A program made the translations under genes and the position numbers. Positions 5,257-22,281 of a stretch of 22,934 nucleotides of DNA are shown here, piece by piece; position 1 is the first letter of the stretch, and every line of letters begins with the position of its first letter. This DNA comes from a virus, in the IMG/VR virus record IMGVR_UViG_3300029319_000128, positions 18,353-41,286 of that record. One strand, 5' to 3'. A model generated the notes under the pieces. The model was not told the DNA's origin. It worked only from the letters and a program-made list of their open reading frames with translations, and ran no database searches.

Positions 5257-6681
5257 ATGGTAACTAAATATAATTTTAAAACAAAACCTTTTGCACATCA
5301 ATTAGAGGCATTAGAAAAGTGTTGGGATAAAAAAACTTATGCCTTATTTATGGAGATGGGCACTGGCAAAACTAAGGTTTTACTTGATAATATTGGAGTT
5401 TTAAGATCACAAAAACTTATAAATGGTGCCTTAATTATTGCTCCTAAATCTGTATACACAGTGTGGCACAATACTGAAATACCAAAACATTTGAATGTAG
5501 AATATGATGTTTTGTTGTGGAAAAACACAATGGTCAAACAGAAATTGGTAAATTTTATGCATAAACCTTCAATAAAACTTAAAATATTTGTTATGAATGT
5601 TGAGGCATTATCTGGTGACAAAGGCTCATTTTGGGCAGAAACATTTTGCAACTTACACGATGCAATGGTTGTGGTAGATGAATCTACATGTGTAAAAAAT
5701 TATCAAGCTAGAAGAACAAAAAATATTTTAAAACTTAGAAAAAGATCTAAATACAGAAGAATACTTTCAGGGTTTCCAACTCCAAAAAATCCTATTGATT
5801 TGTATACGCAATGTAATTTTTTAGATCCTAATCATTTAGGATTTAATTCTATTGTCGCTTTTAGAAATAGATATTGTTTTTTTGAAACACTATATTTAAA
5901 CAACAGACAAATTAATGTGCCTGTTGGTTTTACAAATCTAACAGAGATTGAAGCAAAATTAAAAAACTTTGCTTATCGAAAAACAAAAAAAGAATGTTTA
6001 GATCTACCCGAAAAAATTTATACAAAGAGAAACATACAATTAACTGATGAACAACAAAAACTTTATGATGATATAAGAATACAAGCAAGAGCACATCTTC
6101 AAGGCCAGGAGCTGACAGTTGCAAATGTTATTACAGAAATATTAAGACTTCATCAAATAACGTGTGGATATTTTAAATCAGCAGAAGGTCAAATTTTAAA
6201 TGTTAAAAATAAAAGGTTAGATGCATTGATAGACATTTGCGAAGACACAGATCAAAAAATTATAATTTGGTCTACTTATGTTCATAACATTGAACAAATA
6301 ACTCAAGCTTTGACTAAAAAATTTGGTGTAGAATCTGTAGTTACTTTTTATGGAGCAACAACATCAGACCAAAGAACTGAAGCAATTGATAGATTTCAAA
6401 ACGATGATAAGTGTAAATTTTTTGTAGGTAATCCTGCTACTGGAGGTATGGGTATAACTTTGACAAAAGCTGGAGTAGTTGTTTATTACTCAAATAGTTA
6501 TAATGCAGAGCATCGGGTACAGTCGGAAGATAGAGCACATCGAATTGGGCAAGATCAAAAGGTAACTTACATTGATTTTGTCGCTGAAAAAACAATTGAT
6601 GAAAAAATATTAAAGGCTCTAGACTCAAAGTTTAAACTTTCTGCAAAGACTCTTGGCGAGGTTGTGCGTGATTGGTTTTAA
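5257..6681 (+). CDS. SNF2-type DEAD/DEAH-box helicase/translocase
   Basis: A 474-residue SF2 protein of the SNF2/Rad54 type. The N-terminal RecA-like lobe has the Q-like entry FAHQLEALEKCW (12-23), Walker A MEMGTGKTK (32-40), DEST box VVDEST (139-144) and a motif III-like LSGFPTPK (170-177). The C-terminal lobe has IIIWSTYVHNI (335-345), GGMGITLTKAG (396-406) and the SNF2-specific motif VI QSEDRAHRIGQ (422-432). It is a minimal SNF2 core without accessory domains. Such proteins translocate on duplex DNA; phage versions are probably replication or recombination remodellers. It is the only plus-strand gene. Sampled lines are about 22-25% G+C, against 40-45% in sampled lines of the replication genes to its left, which suggests separate acquisition. 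No ribosome site is properly spaced before ATG 5257: a GGGAG abuts it. Its 3' end overlaps the convergent nuclease gene by 50 nt. Confidence 0.93.
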   Translation: MVTKYNFKTKPFAHQLEALEKCWDKKTYALFMEMGTGKTKVLLDNIGVLRSQKLINGALIIAPKSVYTVWHNTEIPKHLNVEYDVLLWKNTMVKQKLVNFMHKPSIKLKIFVMNVEALSGDKGSFWAETFCNLHDAMVVVDESTCVKNYQARRTKNILKLRKRSKYRRILSGFPTPKNPIDLYTQCNFLDPNHLGFNSIVAFRNRYCFFETLYLNNRQINVPVGFTNLTEIEAKLKNFAYRKTKKECLDLPEKIYTKRNIQLTDEQQKLYDDIRIQARAHLQGQELTVANVITEILRLHQITCGYFKSAEGQILNVKNKRLDALIDICEDTDQKIIIWSTYVHNIEQITQALTKKFGVESVVTFYGATTSDQRTEAIDRFQNDDKCKFFVGNPATGGMGITLTKAGVVVYYSNSYNAEHRVQSEDRAHRIGQDQKVTYIDFVAEKTIDEKILKALDSKFKLSAKTLGEVVRDWF

Positions 6682-7343: not shown

Positions 7344-7547
7344 TCATAATGGGGTGTTAAGTAAAGAAAAAACTAAAGTGCAAAGACCTATTATTACGCC
7401 TCCAGCTATACCTATTAATATTCTCTCTATTCTAGTGACCTGTGATTGTAACTCTTTTATCTTATCATGTGTTTGTTTTTGCATGATTCGACATAGTTTT
7501 TCATGACTATCAATTCTATTATGAGCTAATTCTGCTGTTTTTGCCAT
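7344..7547 (-). CDS. Small membrane protein, XhlA/holin-like
   Basis: A 67-residue protein with an amphipathic, charged N-terminal half (coiled-coil-like, about 10-42, with repeated KIKELQSQVTRIERI heptads) and one hydrophobic segment at about 43-63 (ILIGIAGGVIIGLCTLVFSLL), followed by a four-residue tail. This build is that of the phage haemolysin XhlA family and similar holin-associated proteins, which sit at the inner membrane and assist lysis. A lysis role is inferred; no endolysin gene is recognisable in the window. An AGGAGA ribosome site lies 8 nt upstream and the start overlaps the preceding stop as TAATG, so it is translated with the large virion gene before it. It could also be a membrane anchor for ejection proteins. 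Confidence 0.6.
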   Translation of the reverse strand: MAKTAELAHNRIDSHEKLCRIMQKQTHDKIKELQSQVTRIERILIGIAGGVIIGLCTLVFSLLNTPL

Positions 7548-10438
7548 TATGTTTGTCTCCTACTAGCTATTAAATTACCAGTTGGATCGAACGGAAACAG
7601 ATCACTATAGTCAGGTGGCTGTATTCCAGGTCCAGGTATTCTTAAGCCTCGTTGTCTTGGCAATGTATTAGCAGTAATTGGAGCATCAGGAGGTAACTGA
7701 GCTAATGCTTGTTTCATCATTGCCTCTTCCTCTAAATTTGCTGGCATTCCACCAATGGCTCCAAATAAATCCTCTGGTGGTGGTAAATCATCAATGCTGT
7801 CAAGGTATTGTTTTTCACTTAATTTAGGAAATAAATTTTCCTCCTCTTTTTTTTCCATATTTAAATTTGTAGGATTTGTTATAGGAGCATTATTTTGTCT
7901 AAAGAATTCATGCATCTCTTGCATAGATACATCACTTTCATCATAAGTTCTGCCAGTCTCTGGTTGTAAAAAATAATTACCTAATTTAGCTAAAGCAAAC
8001 CTTGTTTGAGTAGAAAAAGCTCCAAAAGAACCAGGATTTTCTAAAAAACTTCTAAAAGGTGCATTTATATTTTCTAACGCTCTAGGATTAGATAATATTT
8101 TATTTGCATACCTTCCCATGAGAAGCATTAAAAAAGTTGGTAACACACCTAATCCATAAAATGATCCGGTAGCTCCGCCTGTTAGCACTAATCTTCTAGC
8201 TAAAAAAGTAGATGGATCAGGCACTGTATATGACTTTACAGCATCCATGTAAGATAGAAAATCATCATATTGTTTTAACATTTTGTTAGCTTTTGCTGGT
8301 CCAAAAATAATTCTAAATTGAGTTGATGCAGCTTCATTAGGTAAAACTAATTTTCTAAAAACATCTGGATCAAAAACTAAATTACCTTTACCCATATTAT
8401 TTATAGGAAGACCATTAGGTCCTCTAAGTTCACTTAAATTTTTATACATTCCAGTTGCTTGAGCTTGTGCACTTTCTTTTGCAAACAAAGATTTTATCCA
8501 AGTTTGAAGTGAGTCTTTTTCAAGTGGTTTGAATGACAATTGATATGCATCACCAACATGCGCTCCCCATAAATCTTCTAAAGTTTTGTTTCCTTCTTTT
8601 GTGCCTTGTCTTACTAATTTAGGCTTGTAAATTGTAGCACCAGTAGCATCGGTGACTGCACTTACTTTATATACATCAGCATCTAAAAGTTTTTGTAAAT
8701 CTGTTATAGCATCAAAACTGTATCCACTTTTCATTTGTAAAATATTTCTAGATAATGTTTTTAAAATTTGATCTTTTTCTTTTGAGCCAGCTTGTGAAAA
8801 TCCTTGTAATTGTTTTAAAGACAAAGCATTTTGATCAAAAGCAGAGGCCATTCTAGCTGTTCTCGACTCAAATGTTTTTATATTATTTGCATAAAATCCA
8901 AATGCATCTTCTATCGCTTCTTTTAATTGTTTTCGTTCATATTGACCAAAACCTAAATCACCTAATGTGCTTTTTACTTCTTGCTGTACTGCACCACCAG
9001 TAGCTGTCATAGCATCTGTTTGTCTCATAGGAAATTTTAAAGTTATTTCTCTACCTGCATCTAAAGATGCTCTTGCAAAATCTTGTTCTAATGCAGTTTG
9101 TAATTTAGAATAAGTAGCTACTAAAGGATCGTTTTTGTTCATGCTAGCTGTTGTTTGATTCAACATTTTTCTAAGTTCAACATATTCTGTAATTGAAATA
9201 GGTCTATTATTAGCTACAATTTTTTTGTAAGCATCAATAAAGTTTCCTAACGGAGTTTGAATTTCTTGAAATCTAAAAGCATTCTTGACTTCAGGTGGTG
9301 CGTAAGCACTATTTTCCATTGATCTTAATAAATTTCCAACTGAAGATAAATCAATAAATCTAGGATCACCATAGCTTTTTGCCATGTCATACACTCTATT
9401 ATAATTAATATCGTTCATTTTTTGAAATTGAACATATCTTCTTAAAATTGCATCAGCAGCCTTTTCTGATGCTGCACTTGCAGTTGCAAGGTGCATTCCA
9501 GGAGCAATATTAAAAGCTCTTTGAGACATTATATTAAATTTTTCTATGGCTTCTAATTGAGCTTTTTTAGCTGGACCACCTACTACCGGAAGCTGTCCAA
9601 ATATTCTGTTAATTGTTTTAAGAACTTTACCACCAATTGTGTTTGGATCTGCCAACATAATGTACGTTGCATCTAAATTGTTTGTTTTGGCTATTTGAGC
9701 TAATGTTCTTGAGTATTCTGTTTCTAAACCAAAGCCTTTTCTAAGACCGTAAGCACCGTAAGAAGCTAATGGACCAAGTAATTCAGCACCTCCATTAAAA
9801 ATTAGACCAGCTCTCAAATCTTGTAAAGATCTAACTAATTGATTTTGTTCAGATAGTTCTTTGTAAGTTTTGTCTCCTACATTTTTTTTAAGATCCATCA
9901 AATCTCTTGTAACTTCATCAGCTAAATCATATGCTAAAGCTCCTCCTACATAACCTGTTGTTCCACCAATTACAGATCTTAAAGCTAATTGTGCTTTTAA
10001 TTCTCCAGCAGTTCCTTGTGCAGTTGCTTTAAGTTGTTTTAGTCCTGTAAAAAATTTATTTAAAGTAGGATTTTTAAAATTAGATTTTATCATAGCTAAC
10101 TCCTGCATGCCTCTACCAGGATTTAGTAAAAGTTTCATGGCACTTTTTCTACCGTTTAGTAGAACACCCAGTAACACACCGATGTCAGTATAAGTTGCAA
10201 CTTTACCCCTATTAACTTTATCCGCCGTCATAGTTTTTATAGGGTCAGTATATAAGTTTTTTTCTTTTGCTACTTGATCTCTTGCTTCTTTCTGCTCTTT
10301 TGCTATTTGATCTATTGGTTTAGTTTTAATTAAATCTCTTTCTTGTAATTTTTTTAAAAACAACCTTTGAGTTTGATTAAGACTTCTAATATCAATTCTA
10401 TTACTGTTTAATAAATTCTGTAATTTTTCTATGTCCAT
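7547..10438 (-). CDS. Very large candidate internal virion / DNA-ejection protein (963 aa)
   Basis: A 963-residue, helix-rich protein with no enzyme motif I can recognise. The N-terminal 70 residues are strongly charged (Lys/Glu/Gln). Small hydrophobic, glycine-rich stretches occur at about 150-175 (GGTTGYVGGALAYDL) and about 745-775 (TGSFYGLGVLPTFLMLLMG). The rest is alternating helical segments with abundant Ala, Gln and Lys. The last 60 residues are Pro-rich and end in a motif around YSDLFPFDPTGNLIASRRQ. Length, composition, amphipathic segments and position among virion genes fit a podovirus internal core or ejection protein that crosses the host envelope, analogous to T7 gp15/gp16; this is inference, not homology seen. 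GGAGAT lies 7 nt before the ATG, which overlaps the previous stop as TAATG. Confidence 0.6.
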   Translation of the reverse strand: MDIEKLQNLLNSNRIDIRSLNQTQRLFLKKLQERDLIKTKPIDQIAKEQKEARDQVAKEKNLYTDPIKTMTADKVNRGKVATYTDIGVLLGVLLNGRKSAMKLLLNPGRGMQELAMIKSNFKNPTLNKFFTGLKQLKATAQGTAGELKAQLALRSVIGGTTGYVGGALAYDLADEVTRDLMDLKKNVGDKTYKELSEQNQLVRSLQDLRAGLIFNGGAELLGPLASYGAYGLRKGFGLETEYSRTLAQIAKTNNLDATYIMLADPNTIGGKVLKTINRIFGQLPVVGGPAKKAQLEAIEKFNIMSQRAFNIAPGMHLATASAASEKAADAILRRYVQFQKMNDINYNRVYDMAKSYGDPRFIDLSSVGNLLRSMENSAYAPPEVKNAFRFQEIQTPLGNFIDAYKKIVANNRPISITEYVELRKMLNQTTASMNKNDPLVATYSKLQTALEQDFARASLDAGREITLKFPMRQTDAMTATGGAVQQEVKSTLGDLGFGQYERKQLKEAIEDAFGFYANNIKTFESRTARMASAFDQNALSLKQLQGFSQAGSKEKDQILKTLSRNILQMKSGYSFDAITDLQKLLDADVYKVSAVTDATGATIYKPKLVRQGTKEGNKTLEDLWGAHVGDAYQLSFKPLEKDSLQTWIKSLFAKESAQAQATGMYKNLSELRGPNGLPINNMGKGNLVFDPDVFRKLVLPNEAASTQFRIIFGPAKANKMLKQYDDFLSYMDAVKSYTVPDPSTFLARRLVLTGGATGSFYGLGVLPTFLMLLMGRYANKILSNPRALENINAPFRSFLENPGSFGAFSTQTRFALAKLGNYFLQPETGRTYDESDVSMQEMHEFFRQNNAPITNPTNLNMEKKEEENLFPKLSEKQYLDSIDDLPPPEDLFGAIGGMPANLEEEAMMKQALAQLPPDAPITANTLPRQRGLRIPGPGIQPPDYSDLFPFDPTGNLIASRRQT

Positions 10439-12444
10439 TATGGTATCTCCGTTGGTCCTATGATAGGTATGTTATCAAACTTCAATAATTTTAATATATC
10501 TTCAATACCTCCATAACCTTGTAATTCAGCATCTAATATATCATCTAATGTTTTATCTATTCTTTCTCTTTTTTTAGCATCGCCTTCTGTTTCAAATCTT
10601 AGTTTATCAATTGTAGCATCAGATATTCCAATACTATCTGCAAAAGCAATTTTATCAGCCAGTGCCTCTTCAAGTTGATCAGATAATTCTTTATAAGCAT
10701 AAATTATATCTGTTGGTGATTTTAATAAACCAAAAGCGTCAGTTATTTGTTCTGCTCTTTTAATATCTTGTACCGCTAGTCTATCTTTATTTTTTAAAAT
10801 ATTAGCTAATGCATAAGATGTAAATAACTGAATAGATCTTATCTTTGCTTGTCTTGCTAAAGCATTGTCTTCGCTTCCTGCCTCTTTCATTATATTGTCT
10901 GTGGTTGAAAATAATTTTTGTATTTCCTTTTGTACTTCATCAAACTCATCTTCTGTATATGTTGATCTATTTTCATTTATATTACTTACTATTTGACTTT
11001 GAAGTAAACCAAGATCTGCTCTTACATCATCATAATTTAAGTTACCACTTACTTGATCAATAATATCTTTTGCTCTAAGGAAAGTTCTTTTGACCGTTCC
11101 AACTGCACCGATATCACTTGGTATTCTAGTTGCTGTATCTAAAATCTCTCTACTTCCTTTTAATGCTCTTGAAAACATTTTAATTTCATTCAATACATTT
11201 TGTTTTTGTTTAGGATCAGGAAATTGCATTGTTTCAATTAATTTACCATCTACATTTATGTCTCTTGGATTTTTTCCGTTTGGATCAAATACTGTTACAT
11301 AAGGTATTCCTTGCTCAGAATATTTTAAAGGACCTTTTCTTTTTTCACCATTTTCATCCATAAAAACTCCAATACCTTCAATTTTCCCCATCTTTGATAA
11401 ATTTGTTTTACCTCTTGCATTTATTAAAGCTTTTTTGAGTTCTCTTTCATCCTCTCTTCTTTGTTCTTCTAATGCTAATGCTAAAGGTATAGTTTTGTTA
11501 CCTGCCTGACCTAAAACATCTAAAAAACCTTTGAATCCAGGTTGATCTGTTCTACCTGATATTAAATTTGAAGCGAGCTGCAGTAATAATAAATTTTTAG
11601 ATCTTTTACTCTCAGGACCCATGATGTCTTTTACTTGTTGATCAAGCATCAAGGCCTCTGCAGATCTACCGCTTTTTATCACTTCTTGAAAAATATTATC
11701 GTAATAAATTTGACTAGCTTTTTTGTTTTGATCATCTCTGTTTGTATATTCTTTGTCTACTTCTTCTTCATCTATATCTATGACAGGACTTAAAGAATCT
11801 CCTTCATCAAATTGAGGATCTGACACTTTTTCATCTACAGTTTCTAAAGTTTCTTTTTCTTCTATTACATTTGGTAAAACAAAACCATCATTCGCGTCTG
11901 CTTGTCTTACAATATTTGCTCCATCTGGCGGTAAAGTAATACCTGAATCATCTTTAATTTTGTTTATAACACTGTCAGATAAAACATCTGAGCCAGGTAT
12001 TAAAGGCACAGATTCATTTGCAGCTGCTGTTAAATCAGAACCTAACTTTTCTTGTGCGTCCATCATTGGAGATATACCCAACTCTTCAAGGGTAACGGTT
12101 TTGACACCACTTGAATTATTACGTTTTGATCTTTCAATAATTGTATCAACAGTCGGATTTAATTTTTCTTTTATGCCTTCAAGTCCCCCTGCTGCTTGAA
12201 ATGCAGGAATGCCATACATAGCAGCTCTTACATAAGGATTTCTTGGAAAAATAAATCCTCCAATTGCACTAGCTGGTTTTCTAATATAACCCGGTAATCC
12301 AGCATATCTTTGTTGCAAACCTTTTAAAGAAAACAAAGGTGCTTGATTGTACACAGCAGGAACGTTTGGAGAAGATGGAGGCATAGGTAAGCTTCTAATA
12401 CCACCCTCTGACATTTTTACAGGTTTTTTAAGTTTGTCTATCAC
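10438..12444 (-). CDS. Large virion-associated protein, unknown (668 aa, GTG start)
   Basis: A 668-residue protein not assigned to a family. The N-terminal 90 residues are rich in Pro, Gly and Ala with aromatic residues (PLFSLKGLQQRYAGLPGY). Residues about 180-240 are strongly acidic, with a run around DIDEEEVDKE. The remaining two thirds are predicted helical and charged, including GKTNLSKMGKIEGIGVF and a long Leu/Ala/Lys/Glu-rich C-terminal half. The start is GTG at 12444, supported by a GGAGGT site 5 nt upstream that also contains the stop of the previous gene. The first ATG (12414) has no such site. It lies between the Ala/Gly-rich protein and the 963-aa protein, so it is probably one of a set of internal virion proteins. 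Confidence 0.55.
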   Translation of the reverse strand: MIDKLKKPVKMSEGGIRSLPMPPSSPNVPAVYNQAPLFSLKGLQQRYAGLPGYIRKPASAIGGFIFPRNPYVRAAMYGIPAFQAAGGLEGIKEKLNPTVDTIIERSKRNNSSGVKTVTLEELGISPMMDAQEKLGSDLTAAANESVPLIPGSDVLSDSVINKIKDDSGITLPPDGANIVRQADANDGFVLPNVIEEKETLETVDEKVSDPQFDEGDSLSPVIDIDEEEVDKEYTNRDDQNKKASQIYYDNIFQEVIKSGRSAEALMLDQQVKDIMGPESKRSKNLLLLQLASNLISGRTDQPGFKGFLDVLGQAGNKTIPLALALEEQRREDERELKKALINARGKTNLSKMGKIEGIGVFMDENGEKRKGPLKYSEQGIPYVTVFDPNGKNPRDINVDGKLIETMQFPDPKQKQNVLNEIKMFSRALKGSREILDTATRIPSDIGAVGTVKRTFLRAKDIIDQVSGNLNYDDVRADLGLLQSQIVSNINENRSTYTEDEFDEVQKEIQKLFSTTDNIMKEAGSEDNALARQAKIRSIQLFTSYALANILKNKDRLAVQDIKRAEQITDAFGLLKSPTDIIYAYKELSDQLEEALADKIAFADSIGISDATIDKLRFETEGDAKKRERIDKTLDDILDAELQGYGGIEDILKLLKFDNIPIIGPTEIP

Positions 12445-19810: not shown

Positions 19811-20452
19811 CTATCCTATTTTTGGTATACCTAACATAGGTCTACCATCAAACTTATTTTTATCAGCAAATGGGCCATTAACATGATTATAATGTAAGAA
19901 AACTTGGCCACAAACTTGACCCTCAAAAGGTTTTCTCCAATGTTCTAAATCACAACCACTGTATACTAACATGTCTCCTACATCCAATAATACCTCTGTG
20001 CCTGCTGGCGCATTAGGTTTATGTATATTCTTTTGTTCGTTTATAACTGTATCAGCTCCTGTTCCATCAATAAATATTGGCCATGGATCTCCACCTAAAT
20101 TTAATGTTGTAGATATTTCACAGCTTGGTCTATCTTTATGTCTTTTTAATTCATCACCGTTTTTATATATTCTTGCATATGAATATGTCGGTACTAATTG
20201 CAAACCTGTTTTTTCAGCCATGACTGGTAGCATCTTTACCAATAAAGTTTCCATTACAGGATCTGAGTAATGTGAATATGTATTAGGTATTTGTTTGTCT
20301 TTCCATGTTCCAAGTAAACCTACATCATAAACAATATTATTATCATACATAAATTTTACAGCATCTCTCTTCAGTAAAAAATAATTAAATATGAAATTAG
20401 AAATATCGTATGATAAAGCGTTTTTGATTACTTGAAATTTATTAAAAGCCAT
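19811..20452 (-). CDS. 2OG-Fe(II) oxygenase-type protein
   Basis: A 213-residue protein of the 2-oxoglutarate/Fe(II) dioxygenase fold. The first half is helical; the double-stranded beta-helix starts near YSYARIYKNGDELKRHKD (90-107), giving the iron ligands H105 and D107. H171 in CDLEHWRKPF is the likely distal histidine, and CGQVFLHYNH closes the core. The arginine that usually binds the 2-oxoglutarate carboxylate about 10 residues after the distal histidine is not evident, so the co-substrate contact may differ. The enzyme would hydroxylate a protein, nucleic acid or small molecule; the substrate is unknown. It overlaps the previous oxygenase gene by 11 nt and is the last of four oxygenase-type genes, directly before the tail hub. 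Confidence 0.8.
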   Translation of the reverse strand: MAFNKFQVIKNALSYDISNFIFNYFLLKRDAVKFMYDNNIVYDVGLLGTWKDKQIPNTYSHYSDPVMETLLVKMLPVMAEKTGLQLVPTYSYARIYKNGDELKRHKDRPSCEISTTLNLGGDPWPIFIDGTGADTVINEQKNIHKPNAPAGTEVLLDVGDMLVYSGCDLEHWRKPFEGQVCGQVFLHYNHVNGPFADKNKFDGRPMLGIPKIG

Positions 20453-21020
20453 GTTGTATAAAATTAAAACTTACAGATATCCTTATATCATTACTCTTGT
20501 TTGGTTCAACACAATGCCATAACCAAGCAGGAAACATTATTATTCTTCCCTCAATCGGACTGATATGACACTCTCTCCATAAATGTTTAGGAGGCTTACC
20601 TTTAATTCTGGCAGGCATGTTTGTTTGTACACCTGGTCTTGGGTCATTACAAACTAACTCACCACAGTTTTCGGGAGCCTTTATATAATAAACTCCACTA
20701 AATAATGAATTAGGATGTATGTGTGGTCTGTTATATCCATTAGGATAATTTACATTTGCCCACATGTTTCCAAGAATTGGCTCTCTATCAAGCCATTCTT
20801 CTTTCCATATTTCTTTCATCATAATAAATAATTCATCTACTAATGGTTTGAAGACTGGTATTTTTTCCATTCCGTTTTGAGAGTGCCAACCATTCATGTT
20901 TGTTTTAGTTACACCATTATCTCTTTTTGACCACTCAAGTATTTCTTTTTCAAATAGTCTATTATCAATTTGTATATCTTTTCCATAAATTGTTGTTGGA
21001 AAAAATTGTTCTTTAATCAT
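20442..21020 (-). CDS. 2OG-Fe(II) oxygenase of the 2OG-FeII_Oxy_5 type
   Basis: A 192-residue protein. The segment GNMWANVNYPNGYNRPHIHP (84-103) followed by SGVYYIKAPENCGELVC and NDPRPG is the pattern of the 2OG-FeII_Oxy_5 family (TIGR02466-like). H100 or H102 is the first iron ligand; the HxD motif is replaced by HxH here, as is common in that family. The distal ligand is H169 in FPAWLWHCVEPN, and R180 in DIRISVSFN is the expected 2-oxoglutarate-binding arginine. The product should hydroxylate an unknown substrate. A GGAGG sequence lies upstream of the ATG, which overlaps the previous stop as ATGA. It sits second from the tail hub in the four-gene oxygenase cluster. Confidence 0.87.
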   Translation of the reverse strand: MIKEQFFPTTIYGKDIQIDNRLFEKEILEWSKRDNGVTKTNMNGWHSQNGMEKIPVFKPLVDELFIMMKEIWKEEWLDREPILGNMWANVNYPNGYNRPHIHPNSLFSGVYYIKAPENCGELVCNDPRPGVQTNMPARIKGKPPKHLWRECHISPIEGRIIMFPAWLWHCVEPNKSNDIRISVSFNFIQHGF

Positions 21021-21610
21021 CTAAAAGGTTTCCCTCCAAACCAAACTACTAAAGATTGTCTTACTCCTCTAGAAACTTTTTGAACCCTATGGTTTAAAAA
21101 AGATGCAAATACTATTGCATGTCCCTGTTTTAACTCTGCAAACTTACCAGGTGCCATTAATTCTAAATGTCCTCCTTCAAACTCAGACGGGTCATTTAAT
21201 AAAAGTGTCATCGATATTTTTCTTACTGGTGGTTCATGGGCCATGCTCACATCACAATCCATATGCCAATCATAAAATCCACCTACAGGATACTCAGTAA
21301 ATTGTGCGTTTTCTGTTACTTGTATATCTCCAAAACCAAAATGATTCTCATTTGCTTTTTGTATAAATTGATTTAGATCTTGATACATGTGAGCCATTTC
21401 CTGAAAAGGTATCCACGAAATTGTTGTAACTCTTTTGTTCGTATCTACTCCACCACCAGGTTTATTCATACCAACTTGTGCTTTTTTTGGTGGTTGTCTT
21501 CTTCCACATTCTATTATCTGTCTACATTGATCAGGTGTAAATAACGGAGTTGTAGTTTGAATAATCCAACTTTTCCATTTTGGTTCTGTTATTATTTTGT
21601 TTTCGTACAT
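21017..21610 (-). CDS. 2OG-Fe(II) oxygenase, prolyl-4-hydroxylase/PKHD type
   Basis: A 197-residue protein with a textbook HxD...H...R layout: H116 and D118 in GGFYDWHMDCD (110-120), H174 in FLNHRVQKV, and R184 (10 residues later) in RGVRQSLVVWF as the 2-oxoglutarate anchor. RKISMTLLLND (130-140) and GGHLELMAPGKF (146-157) are the core strands of the P4Hc domain. This resembles bacterial PKHD-type hydroxylases such as PiuC-like proteins. An AGAGGA ribosome site lies 8 nt before the ATG; the start overlaps the previous stop as TAATG and the stop overlaps the next start as ATGA. It is the clearest oxygenase in the cluster. Confidence 0.9.
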   Translation of the reverse strand: MYENKIITEPKWKSWIIQTTTPLFTPDQCRQIIECGRRQPPKKAQVGMNKPGGGVDTNKRVTTISWIPFQEMAHMYQDLNQFIQKANENHFGFGDIQVTENAQFTEYPVGGFYDWHMDCDVSMAHEPPVRKISMTLLLNDPSEFEGGHLELMAPGKFAELKQGHAIVFASFLNHRVQKVSRGVRQSLVVWFGGKPFR

Positions 21611-22281
21611 TACTGTATTCCTCTATGTTTTACAGGATCATATAACACATCCATGTTTGCAGCTAGTGTCCTTCTCATACCAGGCCCATTAAAAGGGTAA
21701 ACACAATGTCTCATATCATAAGGAAAAATAAAAAAATCTCCTGCTTCTACATTTGGAGAATAATCAACAGTTGAAAATTGTCCGCTTGCAGATCCTAAAA
21801 TTGATAATCTTCCATTTTGAGGTGAATCAGGTGCAGAATATTCAACACCAAAACTTTCTGGTAATTTTAAAATCATAACACTCGATAGTCCTGTAAATTG
21901 TTCTCCTTGGTGAATGTGAACCGGATTGTATTCATGTTGAAACATTTGATTAATCCAAACAGAATTAAAATGCAATTCAAATTTTCTTACCCTATTGAAT
22001 TTAAGGTAATGAATAAATCTTTCATGAAACCACCTTATAACATTTCTTGGTAAAAAATTATGTTTATTTATTTTACTCGTATCACTTCCATCATAAAATA
22101 AGCTATGTTCTTTTTCTATTTTTCCAATAAGCTGTTTGTTGGCAGGTTCTAATTGTTGATACTTTGATTCATAAATTTTATTTATGCTTAAATAAATATC
22201 TAATGGAACTTTATATCTTAATATTGATTGTCCTAAAAATACAAAATTAAAATTATTATTTTGGTTTTGCGTTGAGGTCAT
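21610..22281 (-). CDS. 2OG-Fe(II) oxygenase-like protein (HxH variant)
   Basis: A 223-residue protein. The first 100 residues are helical and charged. The conserved core begins with FELHFNSVWINQM and then HEYNPVHIHQGEQFTG (116-131), giving an HxH pair H122/H124 in place of HxD. Core strands follow (SSVMILKLPESFG and later FFIFPYDM), then H192 in RHCVYPF and R203 in MRRTLAANMDV as the likely distal ligand and 2-oxoglutarate arginine. It is therefore a plausible third kind of dioxygenase within the cluster, less certain than its neighbours because the aspartate ligand is missing. The first 25 nt of the gene overlap the preceding coiled-coil gene. Confidence 0.72.
   Translation of the reverse strand: MTSTQNQNNNFNFVFLGQSILRYKVPLDIYLSINKIYESKYQQLEPANKQLIGKIEKEHSLFYDGSDTSKINKHNFLPRNVIRWFHERFIHYLKFNRVRKFELHFNSVWINQMFQHEYNPVHIHQGEQFTGLSSVMILKLPESFGVEYSAPDSPQNGRLSILGSASGQFSTVDYSPNVEAGDFFIFPYDMRHCVYPFNGPGMRRTLAANMDVLYDPVKHRGIQ

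Follow-up and report, generated by a model that had tools for sequence, protein, structure and literature searches.

Four consecutive predicted 2OG-Fe(II) oxygenase genes next to the tail nozzle gene of a marine podovirus: a conserved block of the pelagiphage and cyanophage type

Described oxygenase arrays and layout of the locus

Oxygenases dependent on Fe(II) and 2-oxoglutarate (2OG) are among the commonest accessory genes in the ocean's most abundant phages, and the literature we found describes no substrate for the phage enzymes. In HTVC023P-type pelagiphages, co-location of 2OG oxygenases with 'ferrochelatases' was reported by Wittmers et al. in 2022 (PMC9599517), and a 2024 study found both gene types enriched in seasonal phages, interpreting them as auxiliary metabolism (PMC11561400). 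S-SCSM1 has been reported to carry 24 2OG genes (PMC9602691). Clusters resembling the array analyzed here are present in syn9, S-RIM44 and S-SCSM1, and Mosig harbors a comparable run of five or six genes (gp60-gp55).

Closer counterparts share a homolog of D, the last of the four genes (A to D) studied here. In HTVC008M (NC_020484), five tandem overlapping genes (gp072-gp068) encode four 2OG-Fe(II) oxygenases and a 3'-terminal D homolog (44% identity), and the run sits between neck and baseplate genes; HTVC008M, however, is a T4-like myovirus with other paralogs and five genes in the run. The pelagiphage podoviruses HTVC023P (gp65-67), 023Pt_psg01 and HTVC033P (gp61-58) present the same B-like, Oxy_5, D order as this locus, and the first two also have the nozzle gene in common with it, but their D proteins are merely 49-54% identical to ours. 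Furthermore, the fourth oxygenase of HTVC023P is located elsewhere, a small ORF separates the C-like gene from D in HTVC033P, and in 023Pt_psg01 gene A is replaced by a weakly 2OG-like gene named 'endonuclease V'. The Synechococcus phage S-CREM1 contains nine consecutive 2OG/JmjC oxygenase genes (ORFs 72-80), also with the D homolog last, although it is a cyanomyovirus and its D is ~40% identical. L246, a phage-like contig attributed to a single SAR11 cell (AG-404-L13), harbors four oxygenase genes in a row (phrog_81, Oxy_3, Oxy_5 and D) followed by a nozzle gene 50% identical to that of this phage; its array is divergent in sequence (54% identity for D, 34% for B, 30% for C), and this attribution suggests hosts of the SAR11 type for the wider group.

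The window, by which we mean the whole 22,934-nucleotide stretch of DNA analyzed, constitutes the final 22.9 kb of a virus record 41,286 bases long, the remainder of which contains portal and terminase genes. A GenBank megablast returned no near-identical phage. The array consists of four minus-strand ORFs in the order A-B-C-D, spanning 22281-19811 of the window, with one gene on either side:

22933-22256, minus strand: upstream gene, cut by the record end, product without assignment
22281-21610, minus strand: gene A ORF, 223 aa
21610-21017, minus strand: gene B ORF, 197 aa
21020-20442, minus strand: gene C ORF, 192 aa
20452-19811, minus strand: gene D ORF, 213 aa
19772-17571, minus strand: downstream gene, virion structural protein, tail nozzle/'stabilization protein' (phrog_3287, E 1.7e-84)

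As the original prediction had stated, the ORFs overlap by 1 nt (A/B), 4 nt (B/C) and 11 nt (C/D), and the array directly precedes a tail hub gene: the nozzle ORF begins 38 nt past the end of D, and the array adjoins a tail gene in relatives too. Relatives of the nozzle protein are named phage stabilization protein, needle head protein, virion structural protein or tail protein, which makes P22 gp10-like, or 'tail nozzle/hub', a fair label. The upstream gene overlaps A by 26 nt, and a search of the phage collection returned no match for it. Co-transcription of A-D is suggested by the overlaps; a promoter scan yielded no more sites than were obtained in shuffled sequence. Searches of the 41,286-base record with PF13759, PF13640 and D itself returned no 2OG matches beyond A-D.

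Elsewhere in the window, two large ORFs (963 and 668 aa; 7547-12444) without a PHROG match at 0.001 are flanked by an exonuclease gene and a gene for a DNA-ejection-like protein, and a DNA helicase gene (phrog_62, 5257-6681) is the sole long plus-strand gene amid a minus-strand region. The product of 2-748 belongs to the phrog_424 'phosphoadenosine phosphosulfate reductase' family, has no Pfam match and is possibly linked to sulfur or nucleotide chemistry.

Family and fold assignments

Family searches place genes B and C firmly among the 2OG-Fe(II) oxygenases. Gene C scores 92.8 bits against PF13759 (cut-off 27) and 121 bits against TIGR02466 (cut-off 62.5), and phmmer matches it to 3bvc and 2rg4, identifying the predicted 2OG-FeII_Oxy_5 member as a TIGR02466/2OG-FeII_Oxy_5 oxygenase with the motif H100-x-H102 ... 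H169 ... R180, at least 98% conserved among IMG/VR relatives. Gene B exceeds the Pfam cut-off for PF13640 (51.8 bits) and matches PiuC (9ghl; phmmer E 5.7e-6), and its H116-x-D118 ... H174 ... R184 motif, at least 98% conserved in 159 sequences, bears out the proposal of a PKHD/PiuC-like member with an intact HxD/H/R set. Gene A also lies above the PF13759 cut-off of 27, with 34.6 bits, maps to phrog_81 and has an Oxy_5-like motif (H122-x-H124 ... H192 ... R203/R204) whose residues are at least 98% conserved in 148 sequences from IMG/VR relatives; its AlphaFold model (pLDDT 82.6) matches a prolyl-4-hydroxylase, the Oxy_5 structure 3bvc and other 2OG oxygenases. A, B and C thus all have the metal ligands (HxD or HxH...H) together with a distal arginine. 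The HxH arrangement had been regarded as an unusual variant, a view that we reject: HxH is common to A, C and the solved relatives 3bvc and 2rg4, and is therefore the norm of the Oxy_5 family, to which two of the four proteins conform.

The consensus departure is confined to D, which falls in phrog_2954 (E 4e-48), a family labeled 'ferrochelatase', and has no Pfam match (E up to 10) and no NCBIfam match. Its AlphaFold model, built from 33 relatives, is confident (pLDDT 92.6). Foldseek against the PDB returned 564 matches at E ≤ 0.001, headed by a Pseudomonas prolyl-4-hydroxylase (E 1.7e-8), each of the 50 listed being a 2OG oxygenase or a superfamily member; VIA matched the model to SnoN and PHD2 at Z of about 14-16 (up to 15.7). 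In a viral library, named matches include the 'ferrochelatase' of S-SM1 and many 2OG and prolyl hydroxylase proteins. The metal ligands H105-x-D107 ... H171 are invariant in 33 divergent sequences and at least 98% conserved in IMG/VR relatives. Many superfamily members, though not all, use for 2OG an arginine or lysine located 9-12 residues beyond the distal histidine. The original prediction was right that one member lacks it: D has neither residue in that interval, the position being occupied by Q183, invariant in the 33-sequence alignment, as are R94, R108 and R173. Judging from this alignment, one of these three arginines could substitute for the usual one; D may also arrange its cofactor differently or act as a non-canonical enzyme.

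These results bear directly on the published annotation, under which D would be a ferrochelatase and the block a set of iron or heme partners (PMC9599517, PMC11561400). The names given to phrog_2954 and to the published genes speak for this interpretation, but D has no match to the Pfam ferrochelatase family, its confident model has the fold of a 2OG oxygenase and not that of a ferrochelatase, HxD...H is invariant across the D family, and the S-CREM1 homolog is already annotated as a 2OG-Fe(II) oxygenase. We consider a ferrochelatase extremely improbable and predict with high confidence, from the modeled fold, that phrog_2954 'ferrochelatases' are 2OG oxygenases. This reassignment of the family looks new, even though annotators had earlier given 2OG names to single D homologs in S-CREM1 and 023Pt_psg01. 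It implies that the published pairing of an oxygenase with a ferrochelatase would be one of two oxygenases.

Labels of this kind extend beyond D. Four PHROGs matched at 19811-21610 of the window (2954, 3531, 274 and 2297) go by the names 'ferrochelatase' and 'DNA endonuclease (V)', whereas the proteins so named match 2OG oxygenases or have their fold; phrog_274 and phrog_2297, both 'endonuclease', match the same proteins as the 2OG families do. Within such arrays these names are likely propagated misannotation. A D-like domain also forms the C-terminal part of a 449-residue protein (phrog_2954 at residues 273-441) encoded at L263:4113-5462, from a Pseudomonadales single cell, and on L261, L262 and L264; these contigs are larger, and the protein is apparently a cellular relative of the phrog_2954 family on apparently cellular DNA.

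Together, strong family matches for B and C and AlphaFold models for A and D assign a dioxygenase fold to all four products, which are 2OG-Fe(II) oxygenases by family or predicted fold, with predicted catalysis. The claim of four neighboring dioxygenase-type genes is thereby upheld, three by scores above Pfam cut-offs and D by its AlphaFold model, Foldseek and VIA, and structure prediction recovers the fold in both doubtful members, A and D. Their divergence was likewise called correctly. Detectable similarity is limited to A and C (26% over 108 aa), and hhalign returned no high-probability link for any other pair; recent tandem duplication was accordingly rejected.

Conservation of the block and its accessory genes

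To place the array in a broader context, we gathered 138 IMG/VR loci by similarity to A or D, a selection that yields close relatives and not a random sample. The neighborhood survey foreseen in the original prediction found that the set recurs: 116 loci cover the whole array, every one of them in the order A-B-C-D, and among the 138 a contig end, or an insert adjacent to one, accounts for each missing gene. The overlaps are retained as well, at 1 nt in 104/119 loci, 4 nt in 125/131 and 11 nt in 111/132. In a further set, every close relative whose sequence extends far enough upstream (46/46) has A, B and C ahead of D, and in nine distant relatives (D 38-55% identical) gene sets vary, with a B-like gene and the nozzle usually retained. 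Median dN/dS values of 0.22 (A), 0.15 (B), 0.31 (C) and 0.107 (D) indicate that all four genes are maintained by purifying selection, most strictly D. The invariant order and these medians (0.11-0.31) argue that the array is not a chance assembly.

Accessory genes accompany the block in many relatives. A sulfotransferase gene, absent from this window, separates the upstream gene from A in 66 of 100 relatives, and every locus with a gap at this point (66/66) has it ahead of the array; one example, L004:5412-6206, scores 51.4 bits against PF13469, and the more distant L248 has the gene in the same position. This association looks new. Other relatives have additional 2OG oxygenases at the B/C or C/D junction, or small ParB-like genes. 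Among small ORFs located between oxygenase genes, that at L018:6040-6354 exceeds the ParB_N cut-off, that at L003:2416-2835 falls below it, and that at L001:6494-6856 has no match.

Proposed role, alternatives and comparison with known arrays

The explanation that we favor as probable is that of a conserved oxygenase block, made with the tail proteins, whose members have separate hydroxylation targets. By sequence and predicted fold, marine podoviruses related to HTVC023P-type pelagiphages carry in their tail module four Fe(II)/2-oxoglutarate oxygenases that form a non-redundant block, namely two Oxy_5 enzymes (HxH...H...R), one PKHD/PiuC-like enzyme (HxD...H...R) and one phrog_2954 enzyme (HxD...H, without the usual arginine). 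In this model, the four would be produced jointly late in infection, coupled to tail proteins, and each would hydroxylate or otherwise oxidize its own distinct site. Enzyme identity and the conserved block are, as steps of this model, very likely correct. The target step is tentative and less likely than not to hold: tail or other virion proteins, or the cell surface, would be the likeliest substrates, and an added hydroxyl could also take sulfate from the optional sulfotransferase. We lean toward such targets because arrays tend to adjoin tail, neck and fiber genes and a sulfotransferase is sometimes present. In the published phages HTVC008M, Mosig, S-RIM44, HTVC033P and S-SCSM1, the arrays are found within or close to neck, baseplate or fiber regions; not every array is part of a tail module, however, as in syn9 the nearest annotated neighbors are small genes and a methyltransferase. 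In relatives, the oxygenases are 65-90% identical, versus ~50% for the nozzle, and this lack of evident co-variation argues mildly against the nozzle itself as substrate.

Host metabolism or host proteins are nearly as likely to be the target as the virion or cell surface. Host-metabolism genes, shifting cellular 2-oxoglutarate or oxidizing small molecules and adjoining tail genes at an insertion hot spot, are a real if minority possibility. The numerous 2OG oxygenases of cyanophages, for which Sullivan et al. proposed a 2OG/NtcA host-metabolism role in 2010 (PMC3037559), and the reading of seasonal enrichment as auxiliary metabolism (PMC11561400) are consistent with it, as are the ParB-like and extra oxygenase inserts among array genes in relatives, which indicate that the region accepts insertions. 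Draining 2OG, however, would need fewer than four divergent enzymes with fixed order and overlaps, and the strength of purifying selection varies by gene. Hydroxylation of host translation or regulatory proteins during takeover, in the manner of the EF-Tu prolyl hydroxylase or ribosomal oxygenases, appears unlikely: the Pseudomonas prolyl-4-hydroxylase that tops the Foldseek matches of D and ranks high for A has been solved with and without EF-Tu, but matches at 12-16% identity indicate fold only, and PHD2, EctD, HygX and others score alike.

Action on nucleic acids, as AlkB-like repair or base modification, is still harder to credit. The D homolog of S-PM2 has a very weak match to the AlkB model TIGR00568 (E 0.04), ALKBH6 is among the VIA matches of D (Z 14.0), and a role in DNA repair has been suggested for cyanophages (PMC3037559). 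Yet ALKBH6 scores no higher than protein hydroxylases, A-D have no match to AlkB or TET/JBP Pfam models, and the neighboring genes are structural, not replicative. Returning to virion and cell-surface targets, the fullest version of that proposal, in which array and optional sulfotransferase form a dedicated virion or envelope decoration pathway, seems to us rather improbable as a whole. Site-specific hydroxylases would put hydroxyls, some of them sulfated, on tail or surface polymers, altering adsorption or superinfection, and phrog_2954 enzymes would manage without the usual arginine in binding 2OG or a different co-substrate. The optional sulfotransferase provides the sole added hint toward a pathway that would target the virion or the host; a literature search on hydroxylated phage tail proteins and phage sulfotransferase function returned nothing usable.

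Reading the 'ferrochelatase' of phrog_2954 as a predicted oxygenase would remove the heme-metabolism interpretation of recent ecological papers. The locus now poses a single question, namely what four to nine different hydroxylases beside phage tail genes modify, and this question is testable because HTVC023P and HTVC008M are in culture.

With respect to known systems, the array matches the pelagiphage and cyanophage type, with several overlapping oxygenase genes and a D homolog at or near the 3' end. The original prediction had considered a tandem set unusual, a view that does not stand against the runs of five to nine tandem 2OG oxygenases in published pelagiphages and cyanophages; these runs, and the co-location reported in 2022 (PMC9599517), establish that arrays of this kind were already known.
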